Shown here: piece after piece, positions 24,305-34,870 of the stretch | Position numbering within the stretch: position 1 is the stretch's first letter | Layout of the letters: each line of letters begins with the position of its first letter | From: Ruminiclostridium sp. | Lineage (GTDB): Bacteria > Bacillota > Clostridia > Oscillospirales > Ruminococcaceae | Assembly (NCBI GenBank): GCA_017625405.1 | Contig: JAGALB010000006.1 | Span: 1-34,870, forward strand | Reading direction: 5' to 3' | Length of the DNA stretch: 34,870 nt | Translations under genes and position numbers: made by a program | Notes under the pieces: model-generated | The model's database searches: none | The model's input: only the letters and a program-made list of their open reading frames with translations | What the model was told of the DNA's origin: nothing

Positions 24305-26020
24305 TTAACAAATCAGCTCCTTAGCGGAGTGCAGCCTGTGCGGGTGACTCAATATGGACGCACTTTCACCCAGCCGTATCACAGCGCAGTTCTCATCAGG
24401 TTCAGCGGTGCTGTATTTGTTATCTTCGCTGGGGTTAATTGTAACATTCCAAGTATATTTCCGATTATCCGCAACGACAGAACGGATATGCTCATTAAGT
24501 CTGTCCCTCTGAAAGATAGGGGAGGAACTTTCAAGCATTCTGCCAAGTTGTTTTGCTACTGCAGATATTTCTGAAATGCAACCATTCATAATACTTTCCT
24601 GCTCGCTCTGCCGTTCTCTCTGTTCGCAGAGCTTTTTTATTTCCTCGTTATATTCCGCTTTCATAACCACAAATTCATCTCTTGTGATATTCCCGTCGGC
24701 AAACATAGTAATCAGACTTTTCTTTCGTTCTTCGACTTTATCAATCTGACTTTCAATGAAAATAACGCTTTCGGAACAGTTCTGCTTTGATGCAGCCTTG
24801 TAATAATCACATATGCTGTCAAGAGTTTCGAGAAGCTCTTTTCTTTTGCTTTGCCATACCGACTGTAACAAAAGCTCTGCCATCATATCCATTTTCCATT
24901 GAGTGATTGAAGCTTCGTTGCAAAATCCGTCTCCGTCCTTATGCTCCGTTGCCTTTCCATTATTCACTTGATTGTAGCAGACATAATTGTAGGTGATATT
25001 GCCGTCTTTATCCTTGTGATAACGATTTTTGCGGAAAGAAGAACCACATGCACAGCGCAGTTTCTGCACCCATAAATCCGTTGAAATACGGTTGCTTTTC
25101 TTTACGGTTTCGCCGTTCTGAACAAGAGTACTTTTGCGTTTGGAATTTAATATCTTGTTGCACTTTTCCCATTGCTCCTCGGAAATAATCGGCTCAAAAT
25201 CGCCCTTGACATATACATAACTGCTCCTGTCAAGATTGTGAATACGCTTTTGCTCCAGATAATTGTTGACGTGAGATTTGTTATAACAGATACAGCCCTT
25301 ATATGTAGCGTTTTTCAGAACTCGGCTCACATTACTGCAAGTCCATTTTGTTGTTCCTGTTGCAGTAAGCCTGCCTTGCTCACGAAGAATTTTTGCAATC
25401 TTCATTGTGCCGTGTCCTTGTTCGTAAAGGTCAAAGATAGTCCGCACCGTTTCAGATTGCTCAGGGTCTATGACATAAGTTCCGTCAACTCGATTGTATC
25501 CGAGAATGTTTCCGCTTCCGTAAAGAGTTTTGTTCTCTCGACTGATACGCTGACCTGCACGGACACGCTCGGAAACCTTTCGGCTTTCCTCTTGTGCAAG
25601 CGTTGCCATAATCGTCAGTCGTAATTCTCCATCACCGTCCATCGTCCAGATATTATCGTCAACGAAGAAAACCTCAATGTCAAGATTTTTCAAAGCACGA
25701 GTGTGGGTGAGAGTGTCAACTGTATTTCGTGCGAAACGGCAGACTTCACGTGTTACAATCAAATCAAATTTTTTCATTTCAGCATCGGCAATCATTTTCA
25801 TAAACGCAGGTCGCTTCTTTGCTTGCGTTCCCGTGATGCCCTCGTCGATGTATTTATCGACAACTTGCCAGTTCGGATAACGCTTTGCAATATCCTCATA
25901 CCACTGCATTTGATTTTCCAAAGCAGAGAGCTGAGCCTCGTGTTCTGTTGAAACTCGTCCATAGAAAACGACTTTTCTTGGTCTGTTTCTGTCGAGAGAA
26001 TTATAGTTCAGATTTAACAT
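24305..26020 (-). CDS. Large serine recombinase (integrase) with attachment site inside its 3' end
   Basis: The resolvase domain (about 15-150) has the nucleophile Ser24 in YGRVSTEHEAQ and the RFARN and GDGELRLTIMATLAQEESR blocks. A recombinase domain (about 165-270), a zinc ribbon (Cys323, Cys325, Cys348, Cys367) and a coiled-coil (about 400-475) follow, the normal order for integrases of phages and mobile elements. AAAGGAG precedes ATG 26018-26020. Oddly, codons 560-565 cover the 15-bp core shared with ppdK, so the last six residues (AKELIC) are written by chromosomal sequence. In the excised circle the frame would continue into a 50-codon tail now at 32798-32951, giving 615 residues. The integrated form may be seen as a truncated product. 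Confidence 0.93.
   Translation of the reverse strand: MLNLNYNSLDRNRPRKVVFYGRVSTEHEAQLSALENQMQWYEDIAKRYPNWQVVDKYIDEGITGTQAKKRPAFMKMIADAEMKKFDLIVTREVCRFARNTVDTLTHTRALKNLDIEVFFVDDNIWTMDGDGELRLTIMATLAQEESRKVSERVRAGQRISRENKTLYGSGNILGYNRVDGTYVIDPEQSETVRTIFDLYEQGHGTMKIAKILREQGRLTATGTTKWTCSNVSRVLKNATYKGCICYNKSHVNNYLEQKRIHNLDRSSYVYVKGDFEPIISEEQWEKCNKILNSKRKSTLVQNGETVKKSNRISTDLWVQKLRCACGSSFRKNRYHKDKDGNITYNYVCYNQVNNGKATEHKDGDGFCNEASITQWKMDMMAELLLQSVWQSKRKELLETLDSICDYYKAASKQNCSESVIFIESQIDKVEERKKSLITMFADGNITRDEFVVMKAEYNEEIKKLCEQRERQSEQESIMNGCISEISAVAKQLGRMLESSSPIFQRDRLNEHIRSVVADNRKYTWNVTINPSEDNKYSTAEPDENCAVIRLGESASILSHPHRLHSAKELIC
24319..24341. other. Attachment site at the recombinase end of the element
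   Basis: The minus strand reads GCACAGGCTGCACTC (24341-24327), then CGC, then TAAGG. The core and TAAGG match 32944-32966 exactly; only the middle three bases differ. In the ppdK frame this copy reads Ala-Gln-Ala-Ala-Leu-Arg-stop, so it carries the original ppdK end. Confidence 0.85.
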
Positions 26021-26186
26021 CTCGTACTCCTTTCACCAATATTTCTGTCTTGAACTCAGGAAATTCGTTTTTAACGATGTTGTCAAAAGTCTCCTGATTT
26101 ATCAATCCATTTTTCAAAAGAACTTTAACTGCCACAAATTCAGCATAACGTGATTCGACTTGTGGATTATTCTTTTCGTTTTCCAT
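26001..26186 (-). CDS. Small protein upstream of the recombinase
   Basis: The 61-residue protein, Glu/Lys-rich, contains VLLKNGLINQETFDNIV, which resembles the short helical SHOCT-like C-terminal motif. AAGGAGG precedes its ATG, and it overlaps the recombinase start by 20 nt, so the two are coupled. Comparable small frames accompany serine integrases of clostridial elements. A directionality factor or regulator is possible, but no DNA-binding motif is clear. Confidence 0.75.
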   Translation of the reverse strand: MENEKNNPQVESRYAEFVAVKVLLKNGLINQETFDNIVKNEFPEFKTEILVKGVRDVKSEL

Positions 26187-26220
26187 ATTTTTATCCTCCT
26201 TAAGCGCATTTGGTTTTAGC

Positions 26221-26259
26221 GCTTTAAAGCATTATATCTTATGGAAGGAGATTTGTCAA
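26221..26259 (-). promoter_or_regulatory. Promoter of the recombinase operon with a palindrome at the start site
   Basis: On the minus strand TTGACA (26254-26259), 17-nt spacer and TATAAT (26231-26236). The 10-bp palindrome GCTTTAAAGC (26221-26230) lies at the expected start of transcription, and AGCGC repeats follow, a likely repressor site. Confidence 0.8.
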
Positions 26260-26967
26260 GACCATTATGGACTTACGCAGATTTTTCAGAAAATCATTCA
26301 AGGGGTTTGGGTTCTCCCAACAAGTTTTTTTGTATTTGTCGGCACACGGATTTTCTTTGAAAAAGAGGGAGTGTGGCCACAAATACTATGCTTGCTGTCA
26401 ACGAAGTGGCAGGAAGCATAGTTTACAAAAAACGGACTGTGTCTATACACAGGCGATACTTGCTCTCATCAGAAAATGAAAAAGAGCAAGTCGCAAAATT
26501 GACGCAGTGTATAGACAAGTCATATGCTTGCTGTCTACTGAGTTTGAAAAAACAAATGATTAACCTTTTCAAGAAAACTTCGCAGAACGCACATACCATC
26601 GGTGATGGTATATAAGTGCGCCCTTGTCTGTCGCAATGGAAAAATGAAGCTTGTTCAGTCTGAAAAAAATTCATCTGAACTCAAAAAGGTATGTACGTAC
26701 GTACACACCTTTTTCACTTGGAATGAAAATTTTTATTCTCAGGCTGAGAAAAAGATAACCACCCGACTTGTCGTTTGTGCTGACAGTCGAGTGGTTATGT
26801 TAATTCGGGGCAACACAGGGAACGTTACCAATGCTCCACAACATTATACATCTCTTTCAAAGGATAGAAAAGGAGTCGTTTGAGCATCATTTCAGGCAAT
26901 GTACCTGATTCAATGCGTTATCTGAGGAAAACTCGGCAATACTGTTTTGGATTTTCTTTAAGAACTT
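26260..26967. other. Gene-poor region with clustered inverted repeats
   Basis: About 700 bp without a convincing gene between the recombinase promoter and the GHL ATPase stop. It holds perfect inverted repeats ACTATGCTT/AAGCATAGT (26385-26393, 26414-26422), TGTCTATACAC/GTGTATAGACA (26440-26450, 26507-26517) with ACTTGCTCT/AGAGCAAGT nested inside (26458-26466, 26483-26491), ATACCATC/GATGGTAT (26593-26600, 26604-26611), and a 32-bp near-palindrome at 26683-26714. ATGCTTGCTGTC is directly repeated at 26388 and 26524. This could be a transfer origin, a binding array or a structured RNA. Confidence 0.6.
26744..26798 (-). terminator. Terminator of the restriction-modification operon
   Basis: A 14-bp stem with one G-T type mismatch (26755-26768 with 26785-26798) and a 16-nt loop. 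On the minus strand it is followed by CTTTTTCTC and lies about 170 bp past the GHL ATPase stop. Confidence 0.65.
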
Positions 26968-28647
26968 TTACTTACCGTCATCTTCTTTGTCAATCTCTTT
27001 TAACAATGCAACAAGACGTGCTTTGATGTTTTCGTATTCAGTATTAAGCTGTTGCTTTGCGATTTCAGTAATTAAAGAAGTATGTCCCACAGCATCTCTT
27101 ACAGGTTTATAAACCGATGCAGACCTGCTTAATCCAGCAATTTTGGGTGAATTATCAGGCACTTTATCTATTAGATTGGCTAAATATGACATATCAAGAT
27201 AATACAAATCACCCAAGTTTCTTCGCACATCATAACTTATATTGGCAGAGCCTTTGTTTCTCTCTTCGTTTTTTCTACATCTTTCTGCTTCTTCTTGAGC
27301 TGACGGAGTAACAGGTAACTGTGTGTGTTCTACATAGTGTCTCAATAAATTTTCAGCTACAAAACACTCTGTGTATGAAGGAATATTAAATTGAGCTTCT
27401 TCGGATAATTCCTTAACCCACTCGTCTACAACGCTACCCTTTTTTATGAATTTTTCATCTTCTGAACCATTCATATCTGACATTGTCGCATTAAATAGCT
27501 CTTGTGCTTTTCTGGCTTTTTTGGGTATTGTTTTATTGTCAGGATCACCATCGTTACCGTGTTTGCGGCGCAAGGCATCCCATTCATCAATTATTTTTTT
27601 AAATATCTGCTTTAATTCAAGCAACATTTTAGAAAATGTAGGATCATCAGATATTACCCCTTCACGACTACTTGTAAATACATCTTTTGTATCACCTACA
27701 TCAAGGTCATCAAAATGTATTTGTCCGTATGCATAATTTTCTACAATCCTTGATGTAGGAAGATGTCTGAGTATATCCTTTTCTCTCAAACGTCCATTTA
27801 CAAATAGGTCGATGGTTGCTTTTTCTTGCGCTCCTCTAATTTTCAAATTTGAAGGCTTTTTAACGGTAGCAATATATCCTTTTATGCCAATTTCAGGTTT
27901 AATGTAAATACATTCATCTAAATTATCCATTGTATCTAAGAACGGGTCTTTAAAGCCCTTTGTTCTCCATACAAATTGCGTATTATCAGCTAAATCGCTC
28001 AAAAGCTCTTCGGTAATTTTTTCTTCATTAACATAAATATTGAAATCGGAATCAATAAGGGAAAATCGAAAATACATTGCGATTGCCTTTTTTATGTAAT
28101 CTACTGTATTGAATATTCCGTTAGTCAAATTTTCAAAATATAAAGAAGTGCCACTTTCTATATTAGATAAGCCGTCGAAATTGTCATCAAGAGGTTCAAG
28201 CGTGTAGTCTTGAGAATTTAAATCATCCGTGATAGCTTTGTCCAATCCTGAATTGTCAATTATGCCGCCAACAACTTCGCCCAAAGCTTTTTTTGTTGCA
28301 ATATGCACTCTATCTGAACAAGATAATAATGCAAGTTTTCCTATTCCTTTTCTTCCAATAAAAGGTCTGCCGCTTGTTGACTTATATGTACCATTCTTTC
28401 GTTTTGAATAACCTATCTTTAAAAACTTTTCTTGAAAATCATCATCAGACATACCTATGCCGTCGTCAACAATCTTCATCGTATTGTTTTCTTTGTCTAT
28501 TTCAATCCATACATTTTTTGCATCAGCATCCCAAGAGTTTGAAATTGCTTCCCCAAGTACTGTTATGATGTTTCTGTACAAATTTCGTCCTAAGTGATTT
28601 AGCACGCTTAATGAAATATTAAAGTTGTATTTCTGCTTGGTAATCAT
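26968..28647 (-). CDS. GHL (MutL/MORC-like) ATPase of a restriction-modification system
   Basis: The N-terminal GHKL ATPase fold is clear: EAISNSWDADA (N box, about 33-43), DDGIGMSDDDF (about 61-71) and GRKGIGKLALL (about 97-107), followed by a transducer-like region to about 340. The remaining 220 residues are helical and unfamiliar. MutL-like GHL ATPases in prokaryotic restriction-modification operons are a described group related to eukaryotic MORC proteins. AAAGGTGG precedes the ATG. It lies 13 bp after a C5 methyltransferase gene and ends the operon. A role in ATP-dependent target processing or control of restriction is inferred. No nuclease motif was recognised in its C-terminus. Confidence 0.85.
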   Translation of the reverse strand: MITKQKYNFNISLSVLNHLGRNLYRNIITVLGEAISNSWDADAKNVWIEIDKENNTMKIVDDGIGMSDDDFQEKFLKIGYSKRKNGTYKSTSGRPFIGRKGIGKLALLSCSDRVHIATKKALGEVVGGIIDNSGLDKAITDDLNSQDYTLEPLDDNFDGLSNIESGTSLYFENLTNGIFNTVDYIKKAIAMYFRFSLIDSDFNIYVNEEKITEELLSDLADNTQFVWRTKGFKDPFLDTMDNLDECIYIKPEIGIKGYIATVKKPSNLKIRGAQEKATIDLFVNGRLREKDILRHLPTSRIVENYAYGQIHFDDLDVGDTKDVFTSSREGVISDDPTFSKMLLELKQIFKKIIDEWDALRRKHGNDGDPDNKTIPKKARKAQELFNATMSDMNGSEDEKFIKKGSVVDEWVKELSEEAQFNIPSYTECFVAENLLRHYVEHTQLPVTPSAQEEAERCRKNEERNKGSANISYDVRRNLGDLYYLDMSYLANLIDKVPDNSPKIAGLSRSASVYKPVRDAVGHTSLITEIAKQQLNTEYENIKARLVALLKEIDKEDDGK

Positions 28648-28660
28648 AATTCCACCACCT

Positions 28661-29710
28661 TTATACGTCTATACCGTGTTCTTCTAAATGTGTCAATATT
28701 GTTTCTCCAATAACTTCTCCTAATCTAACAGGGACAGCATTACCTATGTGTCTTGCTATATCACTGAACACAAAATTCTTTTCCGGGTCAATAAAGTCAT
28801 ACCAATCTGGAAAGGTTTGTAACATTGCGCCTTCACGTAACGACAATGCTCTGTCTTGGTCAGGATGTCCGTATCTACCGGTGCCATAATTATAAAATTG
28901 TGTCGTTATTGTCGGCCCGATTTGGTCCCAAGTCATACGCCCGTAAACAGAACTATATGTTTGTCCTGTTGGTTTTTTATGACATTCGCATCGTAACTCT
29001 TCGGGCCAATCTTTCCACGTTCCACCGGGAATGGAGTGACGAATTCTTTTTAAATTTCTTTCAGAAAGAGCAGCAGAACGATGTAAAGCATCATTTGGGT
29101 CTACGCCTCCGGCTTCAATAGGTGGCAAATCGTGAATAAAATCTCTAACGTGAATTTCATTTCTGTTATGTGTAGGTGCAATAATATTTATTGGTCCTAA
29201 ATTTGAACCTACGAGGACAAACCTTCTTCTTGTCTGTGGAATGCCGTAATCAGGACAATATATAACTCTGTAATCAGTTTCATATCCGTTCGTATGCAGA
29301 ATGTTTAAAAATTCTGCAAAAATATTTGTATCTTCAATTTGTGGCACATTTTCCATAGATACAATAGTTGGGTGAACCTCTTGTATTAAACGACCATATT
29401 CCAAAAGCAAATTATATTTTTCATCTTGAGCGTTTGCCTCACCCAGTTTAAATCTCATTTGTGAAAAAGGCTGACAGGGAGCACATCCTACCAAAATTTT
29501 AACTGCATCATCATCATAAAGTGCATTAATATCGTCACCGGTGAGTTCACGAACATTTTGAATATTATAATCAATGTGGTTGTTATGTTCGTATGTATAT
29601 TGACAGGTAGGGTCTATATCATAACCGGCAATAACATTTAAACCGGAGTTGATAAGCCCTCGAGTTAATCCGCCTATACCACAAAATAAATCGACAATTT
29701 GTGCCGGCAT
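28661..29710 (-). CDS. DNA (cytosine-5) methyltransferase, downstream copy
   Basis: Motif I is VDLFCGIGGLT, motif IV PCQPFS with the catalytic Cys (residue 79 from the chosen start), motif VI ENV, motif VIII QTRRRFVLVG and motif X GNAVPVRL. At 349 residues it has a short target-recognition region. It differs from the upstream methyltransferase, so two target specificities or two strands of an asymmetric site are possible. A GTG at 29717-29719 is also open, but the ATG at 29708-29710 has better spacing to GGTAGG. Adjacent to the GHL ATPase, with which it may form a functional pair. Confidence 0.9.
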   Translation of the reverse strand: MPAQIVDLFCGIGGLTRGLINSGLNVIAGYDIDPTCQYTYEHNNHIDYNIQNVRELTGDDINALYDDDAVKILVGCAPCQPFSQMRFKLGEANAQDEKYNLLLEYGRLIQEVHPTIVSMENVPQIEDTNIFAEFLNILHTNGYETDYRVIYCPDYGIPQTRRRFVLVGSNLGPINIIAPTHNRNEIHVRDFIHDLPPIEAGGVDPNDALHRSAALSERNLKRIRHSIPGGTWKDWPEELRCECHKKPTGQTYSSVYGRMTWDQIGPTITTQFYNYGTGRYGHPDQDRALSLREGAMLQTFPDWYDFIDPEKNFVFSDIARHIGNAVPVRLGEVIGETILTHLEEHGIDV

Positions 29711-29732
29711 AAATTTCACCTACCTTCCTGTC

Positions 29733-30806
29733 TTACTTCACAAACCTAATCTGTACATTCAATTTCAAATATTGTTGTCCGTCAACTTCGTATATACTAC
29801 CAAAACCGTGTTTGCTCTTGCTCGGAGTATCAAAACGAGTATTGGCATACATATAATTCTTGAAAGCGTTGTGGTTATAAATGTGATAACACACAACATC
29901 GCCATCGTCCTTGACAATGATATATCCGCCTGTTGCTTCGTAATCGCCTGTCCACAAAGTGTTCGGAACCATTCCGAGAGCTATGTTTGTAAGCATTTCC
30001 TTTGACTTATGTCGCAGGAAGACCTTGTTGTCAAGTGTTGACACAACACCTGCTTCGGCAACCATATCGGTAAGTTCGGAAATACTGTGGGACTTACCCT
30101 GATAGTAATACTTAATCATCTCGGCGAACACAGCAGGCATTTCTGTCATAACCATTTTAAGATTGAAATCAAGGGTTTTATTATCTGTTTCAACAAATTC
30201 AATATCTGCTCCTTTTGAAGCGAGAAAATCAAATTTATCTTTAAATTTCTTAAATCCGTGGAATGTATTGATTTCATCACCAGTAAGCTTGTTTCCTGTT
30301 ATCTTGTAAGTGAAATTAGTTGCTCCTGAAGCATTGAAAAGGGTAGAGGGACTTCCAAGCTGCGATTTAATGCTGAAACCAAAAGTATCATCACGTCCGG
30401 ACATAATATCGTGAACCATAAGACGAATATCAGCCTTATCCTGTGATTTTGCTTTCAAGGTTTTACACTTGATTGATTCTGCAAAACTCCATACTTCAGG
30501 AAGCTCAAACGCTCCTTTGGTGTTTTTCTTTGCTTTTAAACCTGCAAGAAGCTTGTCAGTCTGTTCAACGAAAGAAGCAATGGGAATACTGCATATTTCT
30601 TCGCCGTTACCTGCGTTTATAACTTTTACTTCAGCTGTGCGGCAATACTCAAGAGTATCATTACCCTGAGCACGAATTACTTTGAGTACATCATAGTAAA
30701 TATCGGGGATTTTATTTGTATCAGCATCGGCGGCATAAAGTTTACCATCTGCCAAAAGCTTAAAAAGCGTATATAATTCGCTCCATTCTCCTACATTTCC
30801 TGTCAT
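29733..30806 (-). CDS. HpaII-family type II restriction endonuclease
   Basis: HpaII cuts CCGG. The N-terminus GEWSELYTLFKLLADGKLYAA with the following DxxxNKIPDIYYDVLKVIR matches the family, and the length of 357 residues agrees with it. A conserved later portion includes FGFSIKSQLGSPSTLFNASGATN, with a likely metal/catalytic Lys in the FSIKSQLG segment. The ribosome site is weak and the gene starts 6 bp after the small protein gene, so translation may be coupled. The upstream C5 methyltransferase is the natural cognate partner. The exact target is inferred from the family and should be tested. Confidence 0.87.
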   Translation of the reverse strand: MTGNVGEWSELYTLFKLLADGKLYAADADTNKIPDIYYDVLKVIRAQGNDTLEYCRTAEVKVINAGNGEEICSIPIASFVEQTDKLLAGLKAKKNTKGAFELPEVWSFAESIKCKTLKAKSQDKADIRLMVHDIMSGRDDTFGFSIKSQLGSPSTLFNASGATNFTYKITGNKLTGDEINTFHGFKKFKDKFDFLASKGADIEFVETDNKTLDFNLKMVMTEMPAVFAEMIKYYYQGKSHSISELTDMVAEAGVVSTLDNKVFLRHKSKEMLTNIALGMVPNTLWTGDYEATGGYIIVKDDGDVVCYHIYNHNAFKNYMYANTRFDTPSKSKHGFGSIYEVDGQQYLKLNVQIRFVK

Positions 30807-30812
30807 AATCTT

Positions 30813-31088
30813 TTACCTGCTTTTTAAAAATTCATAATAGTGATTCATAGCAACACTATACATTCTGTTTCCTTTGGTATCTTTTAAATCAAAAAATCGG
30901 TTGGAAGTAATATCCTTCATCATTGAGTCAAATTCAATAGAAGAAGTGACATTATAAAGTTCTTTATCAATAACGCCTTCCGAAAGCATATCCTTTGTAA
31001 TTGCTCTTATCGCACGAGTGTATTTTCCTATTGAGCTTTCTGATAACTTTGTTGTTTCTTCAAGCCATTCTCTGAATAATTTCTCCAT
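30813..31088 (-). CDS. Small restriction-modification accessory protein
   Basis: The 91-residue, helical protein begins EKLFREWLEETTKLSESSIG and contains KYTRAIRAITKDML and a NRMYSVAMNHYYEFL ending. This resembles the N-terminal helical domain found on some modification-dependent or HNH restriction enzymes, here as a separate gene between methyltransferase and endonuclease. ATG 31086-31088 is preferred because GAGGT lies 7 nt upstream; the ATG at 31092 is only one base from it. It could bind DNA, act as a chaperone or adjust timing; no activity is assigned. Confidence 0.7.
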   Translation of the reverse strand: MEKLFREWLEETTKLSESSIGKYTRAIRAITKDMLSEGVIDKELYNVTSSIEFDSMMKDITSNRFFDLKDTKGNRMYSVAMNHYYEFLKSR

Positions 31089-31102
31089 ATTCATACCTCA
31101 TA

Positions 31103-32224
31103 TCATTTGTCGAGTTCAGCTAAGCACTTCTTCATAAACTTTGCCATTTCTTCAACAGCGGGGATTGTAACAGCATTACCGAACTGCTTGTATTTCGGAC
31201 CGTCGGCAAGCTTCTCAGGAAAACTGAATTTATCCTTACCGGTCTTTTTATCAATAAAAGCATAATTCACAAAACCTTGTAATTTACCCCATTCTCTCGG
31301 TGTCATGGCTCTGATGCCTTTATCATTAAGGGGAGTCTGCTTGGAAGCAACCACCTTACCCGCAACATCTTTCTTTGGGTCAATAACGAGATTACGCTCC
31401 TTTCCCGAGCCGCCTGTTGCAAGAATTGCATTGGAAACAGGATGTTCAATCTCGGGAAGATTTACAATTTTATATCCAAATCCGTTACCCTTGCTTTCGT
31501 GTCTTGCCTTGTGGCGTTCAAGCGTTTCCACATATCCTGATGAAAGGAAATATTTATCATCGGCATTCATTTCAAGTAAATCGTGCAAATCCTCATAGAT
31601 AGGCTTTTTTCTGCAAGTTGGGAGTTCGTTGGGAAGATTATCAACGGCTCTGCCGAAGTGCTTTCGGCTAAAGCCCATAATATAAACTCTCGGTCTGTTT
31701 TGGGGAACGCCAAAGTTTCTTGAATTACGCACAAAATCTCTTGCATTGTAAACAAGCTTACCTTTTTCATCCTTGGTTACACCAATGACTTTATAATCAA
31801 GACCGTTAACGAGAACATCAAGGATTGTCGCAAATGTTTTTCCTCGCTCGTGGGTGATAAGATTATCAACATTTTCAAGCATAAATGCCTTTGGAGTTGT
31901 TCTTCTGAGCATTTCAGCTATATCAAAGAAAAGCGTTCCTCGAGTTTTATCAAGGAAACCTTCCTGCTTACCGGCACGACTGAACGCCTGACAGGGGAAG
32001 CCTGCAAGGAGAACATCGTAGTTCGTATTATCAACTTTTTCTTTGAACTCTTCGGTTGTTATATCGTTCATCGGATTTTCGCCGTAGAGGTGTTCGTATG
32101 TAAGACAAGCATTTTTATCAATCTCTGCCGACAGCACATTTTCAAAGCATCCTGCAAGCTCATATCCACGACGTATACCACCGATGCCGGCACAAAGGTC
32201 TATGGTTTTATATTTTTTAGGCAT
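31103..32224 (-). CDS. DNA (cytosine-5) methyltransferase, upstream copy, probable HpaII-type partner
   Basis: Motif I IDLCAGIGGIRRG, motif IV GFPCQAFSRAG with catalytic Cys78, motif VI ENV (117-119), motif VIII QNRPRVYIMGF and motif X FGNAVTIPAV are in order. Length is 373 residues. AAGGAG precedes ATG 32222-32224 and overlaps the Vsr gene end. It sits directly upstream of the small protein and HpaII-type endonuclease, as expected for the protective methylase, and with Vsr, which repairs the T:G mismatches made when 5-methylcytosine deaminates. Confidence 0.93.
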   Translation of the reverse strand: MPKKYKTIDLCAGIGGIRRGYELAGCFENVLSAEIDKNACLTYEHLYGENPMNDITTEEFKEKVDNTNYDVLLAGFPCQAFSRAGKQEGFLDKTRGTLFFDIAEMLRRTTPKAFMLENVDNLITHERGKTFATILDVLVNGLDYKVIGVTKDEKGKLVYNARDFVRNSRNFGVPQNRPRVYIMGFSRKHFGRAVDNLPNELPTCRKKPIYEDLHDLLEMNADDKYFLSSGYVETLERHKARHESKGNGFGYKIVNLPEIEHPVSNAILATGGSGKERNLVIDPKKDVAGKVVASKQTPLNDKGIRAMTPREWGKLQGFVNYAFIDKKTGKDKFSFPEKLADGPKYKQFGNAVTIPAVEEMAKFMKKCLAELDK

Positions 32225-32226
32225 TT

Positions 32227-32658
32227 TTATTCTCCTTCATCGTCCGCCTGATTGCGAACTGCTTTTTCGATTATATCGGCACAATCCGAAAGTTTCTTCT
32301 TAATATCGTTGCCCCAGAAGCGAAGAACAGTCCAGCCATCAGCTTCAAGAGCTGCGGTAACTTCTTTATCTCGCTCCATATTGCGTTCTATCTTTGGTAT
32401 CCAGAATTCTTGATTGGATTTGAAATCCTTTTTGCGTTCTTCCCTGTTGTAGCCGTGCCAAAATTCGCTATCGCAAAACACAGCAACTTTCCTTCCGATA
32501 AAGGTAATATCGGGTTTCCCGCAAACTGTTTTAACATTCTTTCTGTATCGCAACCCTCTGTTCCAGAGTTCTTTCATCAGCATAACTTCTATTTTCGAGC
32601 CTTTACATTTGACTTGCTTCATATTGTAGCTGATTTGCTCGGGAGTTTTCTTGCTCAT
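32227..32658 (-). CDS. vsr: Very short patch repair endonuclease Vsr
   Basis: Vsr nicks 5' of the T in T:G mismatches that arise at methylated cytosines. Motifs include SYNMKQVKCKGSKIEVML, a CGKPDITF segment with the catalytic Asp, AVFCDSEFWHGY and the C-terminal WTVLRFWGNDI. Length (143 residues) is typical. ATG 32656-32658 is preferred, with AAGGTG just upstream; a GTG at 32665 lies inside that ribosome site. First gene of the restriction-modification operon. Confidence 0.92.
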   Translation of the reverse strand: MSKKTPEQISYNMKQVKCKGSKIEVMLMKELWNRGLRYRKNVKTVCGKPDITFIGRKVAVFCDSEFWHGYNREERKKDFKSNQEFWIPKIERNMERDKEVTAALEADGWTVLRFWGNDIKKKLSDCADIIEKAVRNQADDEGE

Positions 32659-32700
32659 ACAATTCACCTTGTCAATTTTTGATTACGCCTATTCCATTTT

Positions 32701-32729
32701 AGTATATCATATATTCGACAGAAAATCAA
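32701..32729 (-). promoter_or_regulatory. Promoter of the restriction-modification operon
   Basis: On the minus strand TTGATT (32724-32729), 17-nt spacer and TATACT (32701-32706). It is just inside the element, after the terminator at 32759-32790. Confidence 0.7.
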
Positions 32730-32753
32730 TATTTATATAGTATATGGGCATAC

Positions 32754-32790
32754 AAAAATCCCGTATCCAACATAACCGTCGGATACGGGA
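32754..32790 (-). terminator. Terminator inside the element end, now serving ppdK
   Basis: A 10-bp perfect stem (32759-32768 with 32781-32790) with a 12-nt loop, followed on the minus strand by TTTTTG. It follows the stop of the stranded recombinase tail by 8 bp, so in the circle it would terminate the recombinase transcript; in the integrated state it ends ppdK. Confidence 0.85.
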
Positions 32791-32797
32791 CTTATTG

Positions 32798-32951
32798 TTA
32801 TTTACCGAATTCAATGCGGACAGCCATAGACATATCCTGCCATTGAAATTCTCTGAGATATTTTCCTTTTGACTTCTGATAGGCTCTCGCCATTTCAAAG
32901 GTTATCGGAAAATCCCATTCAATTGCTACCTTAGAGAATAATCCCTTATCT
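32798..32951 (-). pseudogene. Stranded 50-codon C-terminal tail of the serine recombinase
   Basis: The frame reads DKGLFSKVAIEWDFPITFEM, then continues to VRIEFGK and a stop at 32798-32800. It has no start or ribosome site of its own in the integrated state. The phase across the 15-bp core is the same as that of the recombinase at 24341-24327, so site-specific recombination would join recombinase residue 565 to this tail. It is thus a detached gene segment, functional only in the circle. Confidence 0.8.
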
Positions 32952-32966
32952 GAGTGCAGCCTGTGC
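32944..32966. other. Attachment site at the ppdK end of the element
   Basis: The minus strand reads GCACAGGCTGCACTC (32966-32952), AGA, TAAGG. The core is in the last codons of ppdK. AGA-TAA, brought by the element, replaces the chromosomal CGC-TAA now at 24321-24326, leaving the encoded C-terminus (Leu-Arg) unchanged. Confidence 0.85.
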
Positions 32967-34870
32967 AGCAGCGAGTCTAGCGATCGGCACACGGAAAGGT
33001 GAGCAGGATACGTATGTGAGACCGAGCTGGTGGCAGAATTCTACGGATGTGGGGTCACCACCGTGTTCGCCGCAGATACCAACGTGGAGTTCGGGACGAG
33101 CAGCCTTACCCATCTTGATAGCCATTTCCATGAGCTTGTCTACGCCTGTCTGGTCGAGCTTAGCGAAGGGATCGTTTTCGAAGATCTTAGCATCATAGTA
33201 AGCGTTGAGGAACTTACCAGCGTCATCTCTGGAGAAGCCGTATGTCATCTGTGTAAGGTCGTTTGTACCGAAGCAGAAGAATTCAGCTTCCTTAGCGATT
33301 TCGTCAGCTGTGAGAGCTGCACGGGGGATTTCGATCATTGTACCAACTTCGTACTTGAGGTCAGCACCTGCAGCAGCGATAACTTCGTCAGCTGTTGCAA
33401 CAACTACGTCCTTAACGTACTTGAGTTCCTTGATTTCGCCTACGAGAGGAATCATGATTTCAGGAACGATATTCCAGTCGGGATGAGCCTTCTTAACGTT
33501 GATAGCAGCCTTGATAACTGCAGCTGTCTGCATCTTAGCAATTTCAGGATATGTTACTGCAAGACGGCAGCCTCTGTGACCCATCATGGGGTTGAATTCG
33601 TGGAGAGAAGCGATAAGAGCCTTGATGTCTTCAACGGACTTGCCCTGAGTATCAGCGAGAGCCTTGATGTCAGCTTCTTCTGTAGGAACGAATTCGTGAA
33701 GAGGAGGATCGAGGAAACGGATTGTAACAGGGTTACCTTCGAGAGCTTCGTAGAGAGCTTCAAAGTCAGCCTGCTGCATGGGTTCGATCTTAGCGAGAGC
33801 AGCTTCTCTTTCTTCAACTGTATCTGCACAGATCATTTCACGGAATGCAGCGATTCTGTCAGCTTCGAAGAACATGTGCTCTGTACGGCAAAGACCGATA
33901 CCTTCAGCACCGAGTTCGCGAGCCTTCTTAGCGTCTGCGGGTGTATCTGCGTTTGTTCTTACCTTAAGAACTCTGTACTTGTCAGCCCAAGCCATGATTC
34001 TGCCGAATTCGCCAGCGATTGTAGCGTCAACAGTAGGAATGAGACCGTCATAGATGTTACCTGTTGTACCATCGATAGAAATGCAGTCACCTTCGTTATA
34101 TGTCTTGCCAGCAAGTGTGAACTTCTTGTTTTCTTCATCCATCTTGATGTCGCCGCAACCGGATACGCAGCATGTACCCATACCACGAGCAACAACGGCA
34201 GCGTGAGATGTCATACCACCACGAACTGTGAGGATACCCTGAGCAGCCTTCATACCTGTGATATCTTCGGGAGATGTTTCAAGACGTACGAGAACTACCT
34301 TTTCGCCTCTTTCAGCCCAAGCAACTGCGTCGTCAGCTGTGAATACAACCTTACCGCAAGCAGCACCGGGAGAAGCGCCGAGACCCTTACCAGCGGGAAC
34401 TGCAGCCTTGATAGCCTTAGCGTCGAACTGGGGGTGGAGAAGTGTATCGAGGTTACGAGGATCGATCATAAGAACGGCTTCCTGTTCAGTTCTCATACCT
34501 TCGTCAACGAGGTCGCAAGCGATCTTGAGGGCAGCCTGAGCTGTTCTCTTACCGTTACGAGTCTGGAGCATATAGAGCTTACCGTGTTCTACTGTAAATT
34601 CCATATCCTGCATATCTCTGTAGTGGTTTTCAAGAGTCTTGCAAACATCTACGAACTGAGCAAATGCTTCGGGGAACTTTTCTTCCATCTGAGCGATGGG
34701 CATGGGAGTACGAACGCCGGCTACAACGTCTTCGCCCTGTGCGTTTGTTAAGAATTCACCCATGAGCTTCTTTTCGCCTGTAGCAGGGTCACGTGTGAAA
34801 GCAACACCTGTACCGCAGTCATCACCCATGTTACCGAAAGCCATCATCTGTACGTTAACAGCTGTACCCC
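32946..34870 (-). CDS. ppdK: Pyruvate,phosphate dikinase, C-terminal part (runs off the window)
   Basis: PPDK interconverts pyruvate, ATP and phosphate with PEP, AMP and pyrophosphate, a glycolytic step in many anaerobes. The visible 641 codons include the end of the nucleotide-binding domain (FGNMGDDCGTGVAFTRDPATG), the swivelling phosphohistidine domain with GGMTSHAAVVARGMG, and the PEP-binding barrel with GLCRTEHMFF, MMGHRGCRL, FGTNDLTQM and the catalytic GICGEHGGDP. The 5' end lies beyond position 34870. Strong codon bias suggests high expression. Its last two codons and stop are supplied by the integrated element, and its terminator is the element's. Confidence 0.95.
   Translation of the reverse strand, partial: GTAVNVQMMAFGNMGDDCGTGVAFTRDPATGEKKLMGEFLTNAQGEDVVAGVRTPMPIAQMEEKFPEAFAQFVDVCKTLENHYRDMQDMEFTVEHGKLYMLQTRNGKRTAQAALKIACDLVDEGMRTEQEAVLMIDPRNLDTLLHPQFDAKAIKAAVPAGKGLGASPGAACGKVVFTADDAVAWAERGEKVVLVRLETSPEDITGMKAAQGILTVRGGMTSHAAVVARGMGTCCVSGCGDIKMDEENKKFTLAGKTYNEGDCISIDGTTGNIYDGLIPTVDATIAGEFGRIMAWADKYRVLKVRTNADTPADAKKARELGAEGIGLCRTEHMFFEADRIAAFREMICADTVEEREAALAKIEPMQQADFEALYEALEGNPVTIRFLDPPLHEFVPTEEADIKALADTQGKSVEDIKALIASLHEFNPMMGHRGCRLAVTYPEIAKMQTAAVIKAAINVKKAHPDWNIVPEIMIPLVGEIKELKYVKDVVVATADEVIAAAGADLKYEVGTMIEIPRAALTADEIAKEAEFFCFGTNDLTQMTYGFSRDDAGKFLNAYYDAKIFENDPFAKLDQTGVDKLMEMAIKMGKAARPELHVGICGEHGGDPTSVEFCHQLGLTYVSCSPFRVPIARLAAAQAALR

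Follow-up and report, generated by a model that had tools for sequence, protein, structure and literature searches.

The window analysed here is a stretch of 34,870 nucleotides from Ruminiclostridium sp. (GenBank assembly GCA_017625405.1, contig JAGALB010000006.1, positions 1 to 34,870). It carries an element of about 8.6 kb (roughly 24342-32951) seated in the 3' end of ppdK, the gene for pyruvate phosphate dikinase. Its cargo consists of defence genes, a large serine recombinase moves it, and its attachment (att) site lies inside the gene for that recombinase. Very probably the recombinase is switched anatomically, with a long form in the excised circle and a short form when the element is integrated. 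The initial annotation of this DNA had proposed such a pair of forms, and comparison with relatives supports it strongly at the level of sequence, through stranded tails that keep the recombinase phase, purifying selection on these tails and natural in-frame fusions.

As originally annotated, a 15-bp core (GCACAGGCTGCACTC on the minus strand, extendable to 23 nt with 2 mismatches) is found within recombinase codons 560-565 (24327-24341) and again at ppdK (32952-32966), with both copies in the recombinase phase. Past the second copy, this phase reads DKGLFSKVAIEW...IEFGK and a stop, ending at 32798. The circle form obtained by this reading has 565 + 50 = 615 residues, in frame, in agreement with the run-on and total length first proposed. 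The integrated protein ends ...HPHRLHS-AKELIC, and the claim that host DNA writes AKELIC holds, with 24305-24326 reading as a ppdK end. The further claim of a terminator at the end of the tail stands in part: a hairpin with a T run directly follows the tail stop (-29.1 kcal/mol, z -6.8), but a simple terminator scan lists no site there.

One correction to the initial annotation concerns the core, which itself reads as ppdK coding DNA. The ppdK C-terminus at the second copy is ...AQAALR, with its stop at 32946, and the left copy can also be read as a ppdK C-terminus, GCA CAG GCT GCA CTC CGC TAA. The two ends differ in their codons (CTC AGA TAA to the right of the element, CTC CGC TAA to the left), and both give Leu-Arg-stop. 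Since both sides read as ppdK C-termini, the element appears to have entered at the 3' end of the gene and to have supplied a substitute end of its own, so that the ppdK protein sequence is kept. Read in this way, the att site codes in two frames at once, contributing to ppdK in the first and to the recombinase linker in the second.

Stranded tails of the same kind are common behind ppdK. A profile of 12 tails was used to search 34 genomes (reached via 35 loci), and tail genes were found in 25 of them, with 39 matches, 35 without an internal stop. Of the 30 matches whose loci were read, 4 form part of a recombinase fusion and 2 stand at the edge of a contig. Another 19 follow the ppdK 3' end immediately; these come from 18 genomes, L152 and L165 belonging to the same one and having common upstream sequence. 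The last 5 lie elsewhere. Over all loci there are 59 distinct tail copies, 36 stranded and 23 fused. No core was found upstream of 4 of the 36 stranded copies; among the 32 with a recognisable upstream core, 29 are in the recombinase phase, and 27 are open through the core. All 27 open, in-phase tails encode a ppdK-like end (AQA..., 6-10 residues and a stop) in the other frame, and so the stretch holds the ends of two genes in two frames. Five stranded tails (L142, L143, L145, L148 and L150) have no ppdK that could be found directly upstream, and perhaps mark pseudo-sites.

The pattern of substitutions agrees with a coding role for the tails. The largest sister group has 13 distinct stranded tails, with a pooled selection ratio of 0.17 in the tail frame versus 2.21 and 1.92 in the shifted frames; differences at codon positions 1, 2 and 3 number 448, 373 and 1326. 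Two smaller groups agree (4 copies, ratio 0.09; 3 copies, ratio 0.36, from few changes). The pairs behind these ratios are not independent, and the values are descriptive, without a p-value. In a differently cut count that includes fused tails, four groups have ratios between 0.05 and 0.24 and one further group, with two changes, has a ratio of 0; the frame-shift control belongs to the count of stranded tails only, which is the one relied on here. By this measure, the stranded tails are under purifying selection in the recombinase frame.

A natural tandem array, L166, spans 19.6 kb of L033's genome and contains recombinases joined to tails. Its order is ppdK, core and tail 1; unit A, with recombinase A in frame with tail 2; and unit B, with recombinase B joined to tail 3, the last at the contig end. 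Recombinase B is 96% identical to that of the window, and tail 2 shares 94% identity with the tail stranded in the window. Because tail 2 heads the unit with the window-like recombinase, recombinase and tail belong to one element, as the circle would join them. As we read the array, each recombinase wears its neighbour's tail. Unit B (L033/L166) carries a different methyltransferase-like sequence as cargo.

The same layout recurs in dozens of relatives, and by their sequences the arrangement is general to a family of elements. The recombinase has a match at 1e-60 in 64 of 297 family genomes; the genome collection supplied 61 of the relatives' loci, and viral contigs a further 4. Most of their 3' ends have a common linker, with DNA like CTGCACAGGCNGC, and then differ. 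We tallied the C-termini mechanically at 1e-100 over 65 rows drawn from the window and L032-L096. An end written by the site follows the linker in 32 rows (L069 is cut by a contig end, and two have the same end, LHRRR), a tail follows the linker in 6 (two cut by contig ends), the tail is built in without a linker in 8, and an LHTQ/LHIP-type end, apparently reflecting another site, is found in 6; the remaining rows are other (7) or incomplete (6). One sub-lineage (L036, L039, L041, L042, L044, L045 and L046) ends in LHTQ.EIT or LHIPVDETL-like sequence, and in several of its members the linker is followed by CACACAGGTGGAGATAACTC-like DNA; this sub-lineage apparently uses another target site.

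Among the four readable recombinases 87-97% identical to the window's, none ends in AKELIC at an unrelated site. The ends are instead AKVVNHKSAFVQDS in L032, QLLVIGINQKIVIQ in L035, whose copy is frameshifted, QSTTSNSDKLSEMQIA in L034 and, in L033, a 41-residue tail piece that the contig end interrupts. Another recombinase body, shared by L033, L007 and L051 at 92-96% identity, carries three different ends, two of them tails and one decayed. The core is read in the same phase in 39 of the 42 recombinase rows that have one, from 89 distinct long rows overall, among which the window is counted three times.

The ppdK 3' end in congeners likewise reads as a repeatedly used site. In 30 congener loci (the window's own included), open tails are found behind ppdK at L101, L102 and L118, and apparently decayed tails at L098, L100 and L119; the ppdK query has no match in 7 of 60 congeners. 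An empty ppdK site with the window's left flank was not found in the genus, where the flank matched 7 of 60 genomes, completely in the window's own and only partially in the other six. Thus, the target is deduced from ppdK coding DNA on both sides and from the congener ppdK ends. The left flank may hold the remnant of an old element.

What the tail adds to the protein can be approached through structure. The window recombinase has the Resolvase (PF00239, 2.9e-29) and Recombinase (PF07508, 1.8e-22) domains. In its model, the C-terminal DNA-binding region has the overall fold known from solved serine integrases, and the body can be aligned to the full length of one of them, that of SPbeta. The structural alignment with solved serine integrases spans model residues 10-529. 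The tail is predicted to form a small beta-alpha-beta module beyond this complete serine-integrase fold, and the linker before it, encoded by the att site, is predicted to be disordered. Because the tail lies beyond the aligned part of the model, the known role of the serine-integrase C-terminal domain cannot simply be transferred to it.

Several observations weigh against the proposed switch or narrow it. Three stranded copies (L098, L119 and L061) are out of phase. In two recombinases, L018 and L095, the off-phase core is a genuine ppdK-type one (chance matches were considered for these two and rejected), and L025 reads the core in another phase with its tail in register. Several of the ends scored as site-written, those of L032, L035 and L077, derive from tails of other elements that have decayed, and not from ordinary host sequence. 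In assembled genomes of relatives that lack the linker, the tail is still joined to the recombinase, so carrying a tail does not in itself rule out residence in the chromosome. An in-frame ATG, GTG or TTG is present upstream of the core in 22 of the 27 open tails, mostly inside ppdK. The role of the tail cannot be read from homology, because its fold has no PDB match better than E 6.4 and its sequence no Pfam match; a profile that included one miscopied row also gave no match among the sequences of solved chains. Finally, no circle junction was found, so the 615-residue form is read and not observed. The own-tail junction pattern of the sister group gave no match in viral contigs or in 391 class genomes. 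A pattern for this junction hit 1 of 396 family genomes, where the match was to the attL of the window itself and had 2 mismatches. This is weak counter-evidence, because integrated genomes would give the same result.

Related observations bear on phase and on free copies. At L061 the following tail is out of phase with its recombinase, and at L018 a tail-like stretch is, by eye, also in the wrong phase; compatibility of phase between recombinase and tail may matter. In L169, which reads a ppdK-type core in another phase, the recombinase itself ends ppdK-like, AQANIKNPRN. The linker-less tailed recombinases of L013 and L070 adjoin ppdK in convergent orientation, and a search for att repeats around three unsplit relatives (L072, L081 and L091) found nothing convincing. 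At 1e-60 the recombinase matches 2 plasmid and 4 phage records. Of the two phage records that were read, MT836627.1 has the tail built in and MT835788.1 ends ppdK-like, AQANIKNPRN; neither has overlapping ends.

The explanation that fits best overall, and that we consider probable, is an attP borne by the linker, with a tailed circle enzyme that integrates and a tail-less resident that re-excises less readily or conditionally. The att site lies in codons of the linker, which connects the complete body of a serine integrase to a small, conserved domain at the tail; a tail would come into use wherever it is joined to a recombinase, whether by circle formation or within a tandem array. Once the element has entered a cell, the long form would be made there and would perform or enforce integration. 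Integration would then remove the tail, leaving a resident that makes a tail-less enzyme resembling a canonical, complete serine integrase. Loss of the tail would most likely lower immediate re-excision or make it conditional, for instance on a partner protein or on the long form supplied by an incoming relative; whether the loss has this functional effect at all is, from the sequences, an even call.

Other explanations account for parts of these data. The tail swap could be a by-product of economical packing, with an att site that overlaps the gene end and two forms that work alike. This would suit a body that already aligns over the full length of the SPbeta integrase, and integrated frames that remain open despite arbitrary ends. 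A functionless tail would not be expected to show purifying selection in its stranded copies, or to persist as a motif in unsplit relatives at 43-53% identity, and we regard simple packing as rather unlikely. In a different alternative the stranded tails are small genes of their own, for example for a recombinase partner peptide, expressed behind ppdK in the integrated state. They do lie 3' of ppdK on the same strand, and the upstream starts counted above stand in the open frame (in the window, a GTG at 32992, inside ppdK). Yet 5 of the 27 have no such start, a Shine-Dalgarno-like tetramer precedes it in only 1 of 27 (L143, which is not at ppdK), and no ATG, GTG or TTG occurs in the 16 codons after the core in 25 of 27; the window's own tail has no start codon between the core and the conserved motif. 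Homologous tails are, moreover, built into unsplit recombinases. Separate translation from inside ppdK seems unlikely on this evidence, and tails as independent genes very improbable. That the core is a chance repeat in an unrelated gene end, or an assembly artefact, has next to no likelihood: serine recombinase cores are short and contigs of metagenome-assembled genomes can be misjoined, but the same type of junction is found in many separately assembled genomes and in the three-tail array. Chance repetition was rejected on the ppdK reading of the left copy and on the recurrence of the arrangement in many relatives.

A stronger version of the switch would make it a built-in control of direction, the long form recombining attP with attB and the short form attL with attR, in place of a directionality factor or as an aid to one. 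For tails to be selected the element would have to leave again, and a lone resident would make only the short form; in other systems, according to passages of PMC3783163, it is established that the direction of serine integrases is controlled through their C-terminal parts. Against this, relatives with a built-in tail presumably both integrate and excise with the tail attached, and a small open reading frame (ORF) upstream of many recombinases could encode an ordinary directionality factor. For integrative and mobilizable elements with serine integrases, passages of PMC5704250 describe no directionality factor as identified or proposed, and some of these recombinases as working both ways without one. 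We hold a direction switch of this kind to be possible but doubtful. Equally tentative is the fuller scheme in which the tailed circle enzyme integrates, the tail-less resident excises, arrays at ppdK shuffle the tails and each recombination re-edits its own enzyme.

The features of the window are collected in Table 1. The small ORFs upstream of many relatives' recombinases (about 45-60 residues, with a motif like ALKLIEILLEKGLINQATYxNI) accompany split and unsplit genes alike; these and the window's 61-residue ORF are possible candidates, from sequence, for a directionality or partner protein. A long imperfect palindrome (26663-26734; 38-nt arms, 79%) lies between the recombinase and the cargo.

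Table 1. Features of the element and its target in the window (positions in nucleotides)
Feature	Position	Strand	Remarks
Landing-site DNA	24305..24326	-	Reads as ppdK end CTC CGC TAA; encodes last residues of integrated recombinase
Large serine recombinase, 571 residues integrated	24305..26020	-	Residues 1-565 element-encoded; AKELIC from landing site
att core, recombinase end of element (recombinase x host junction)	24327..24341	-	Recombinase codons 560-565
61-residue ORF	26001..26186	-	Overlaps recombinase start
GHKL-ATPase type II restriction protein (cargo)	26968..28647	-	Nearest BbrUII/HgiDII family, under that family's cut-off
C5 cytosine methyltransferase (cargo)	28661..29719	-	
HpaII-type restriction endonuclease (cargo)	29733..30806	-	
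93-residue ORF (cargo)	30813..31094	-	Weak match to SAM-like integrase domain
Second C5 cytosine methyltransferase (cargo)	31103..32224	-	
Vsr-type endonuclease (cargo)	32227..32667	-	
Hairpin with T run, terminator-like	32741..32797	-	Directly after tail stop
Stranded recombinase tail, 50 residues	32798..32951	-	DKGLF...EFGK and stop
ppdK (pyruvate phosphate dikinase)	32946..34847	-	5' part apparently lost at contig end; last codons are the target site
att core, ppdK end of element	32952..32966	-	Last ppdK codons

Known systems resemble this arrangement in part. The body of the recombinase has the domain order and fold of large serine integrases such as those of Bxb1, phiC31, SPbeta and a Listeria prophage, and like them inserts site-specifically into a host gene; it differs in its extra C-terminal tail module, in an att site within coding sequence and in an element that restores the end of the host gene. 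Staphylococcal cassette chromosome (SCC) elements, moved by Ccr proteins, likewise combine a large serine recombinase, insertion at a gene 3' end, tandem build-up and restriction cargo. The window enzyme is set apart from Ccr by its best NCBIfam match, CcrB at 125 bits, which lies below the equivalog cut-off of 900.

The closest parallels in the placement of the site come from systems with tyrosine recombinases. In the sections of the review PMC8371274 that treat them, the suicidal (SSV-type) integrases are exclusively archaeal tyrosine recombinases with a site in their own gene, which integration splits into two inactive parts; recombination between related elements can yield chimeric genes, and excision may need a complete enzyme from a relative. 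The shared feature is a recombination site within the integrase gene, so that integration alters the gene. The window enzyme is instead bacterial and a serine recombinase. The SSV-type proteins, as described there, have their N- and C-terminal parts separated, the catalytic domain in the latter, whereas here the resolvase and recombinase domains stand in one 571-residue frame; catalytic and DNA-binding parts stay together, and only the 50-residue tail is exchanged. In the integration-dependent immunity of BPs-type mycobacteriophages, as set out in parts of PMC8092301 and PMC9262239, attP lies in the repressor gene and integration changes the repressor C-terminus. The two systems have in common an attP inside a protein-coding gene and a C-terminus that differs between integrated and free forms. 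Here, however, attP is in the recombinase gene rather than a repressor gene, and the BPs integrase is of the tyrosine type. The BPs-type tail, on the same partial accounts, is typically a degradation tag, whereas the window tail ends ...RIEFGK, with no ssrA-like tag, and is a conserved module predicted to fold. Searches of the open-licence PMC library, which lacks most subscription papers, brought up no account of a serine integrase gene that contains an att site and exchanges its tail.

The arrangement looks like a widespread bacterial, serine-type counterpart of these systems, in which the whole enzyme is kept, one module is exchanged and the state of integration is written into the enzyme itself. 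Two natural forms of one enzyme would make the setting of direction without a known directionality factor directly testable. There is also a consequence for genome mining. Recombinase genes mined from integrated genomes of this family would lack their natural tail and end in residues written by the landing site, which matters for such mining; a large mining study of serine recombinases (PMC10083194) reconstructs att sites from integrated genomes.

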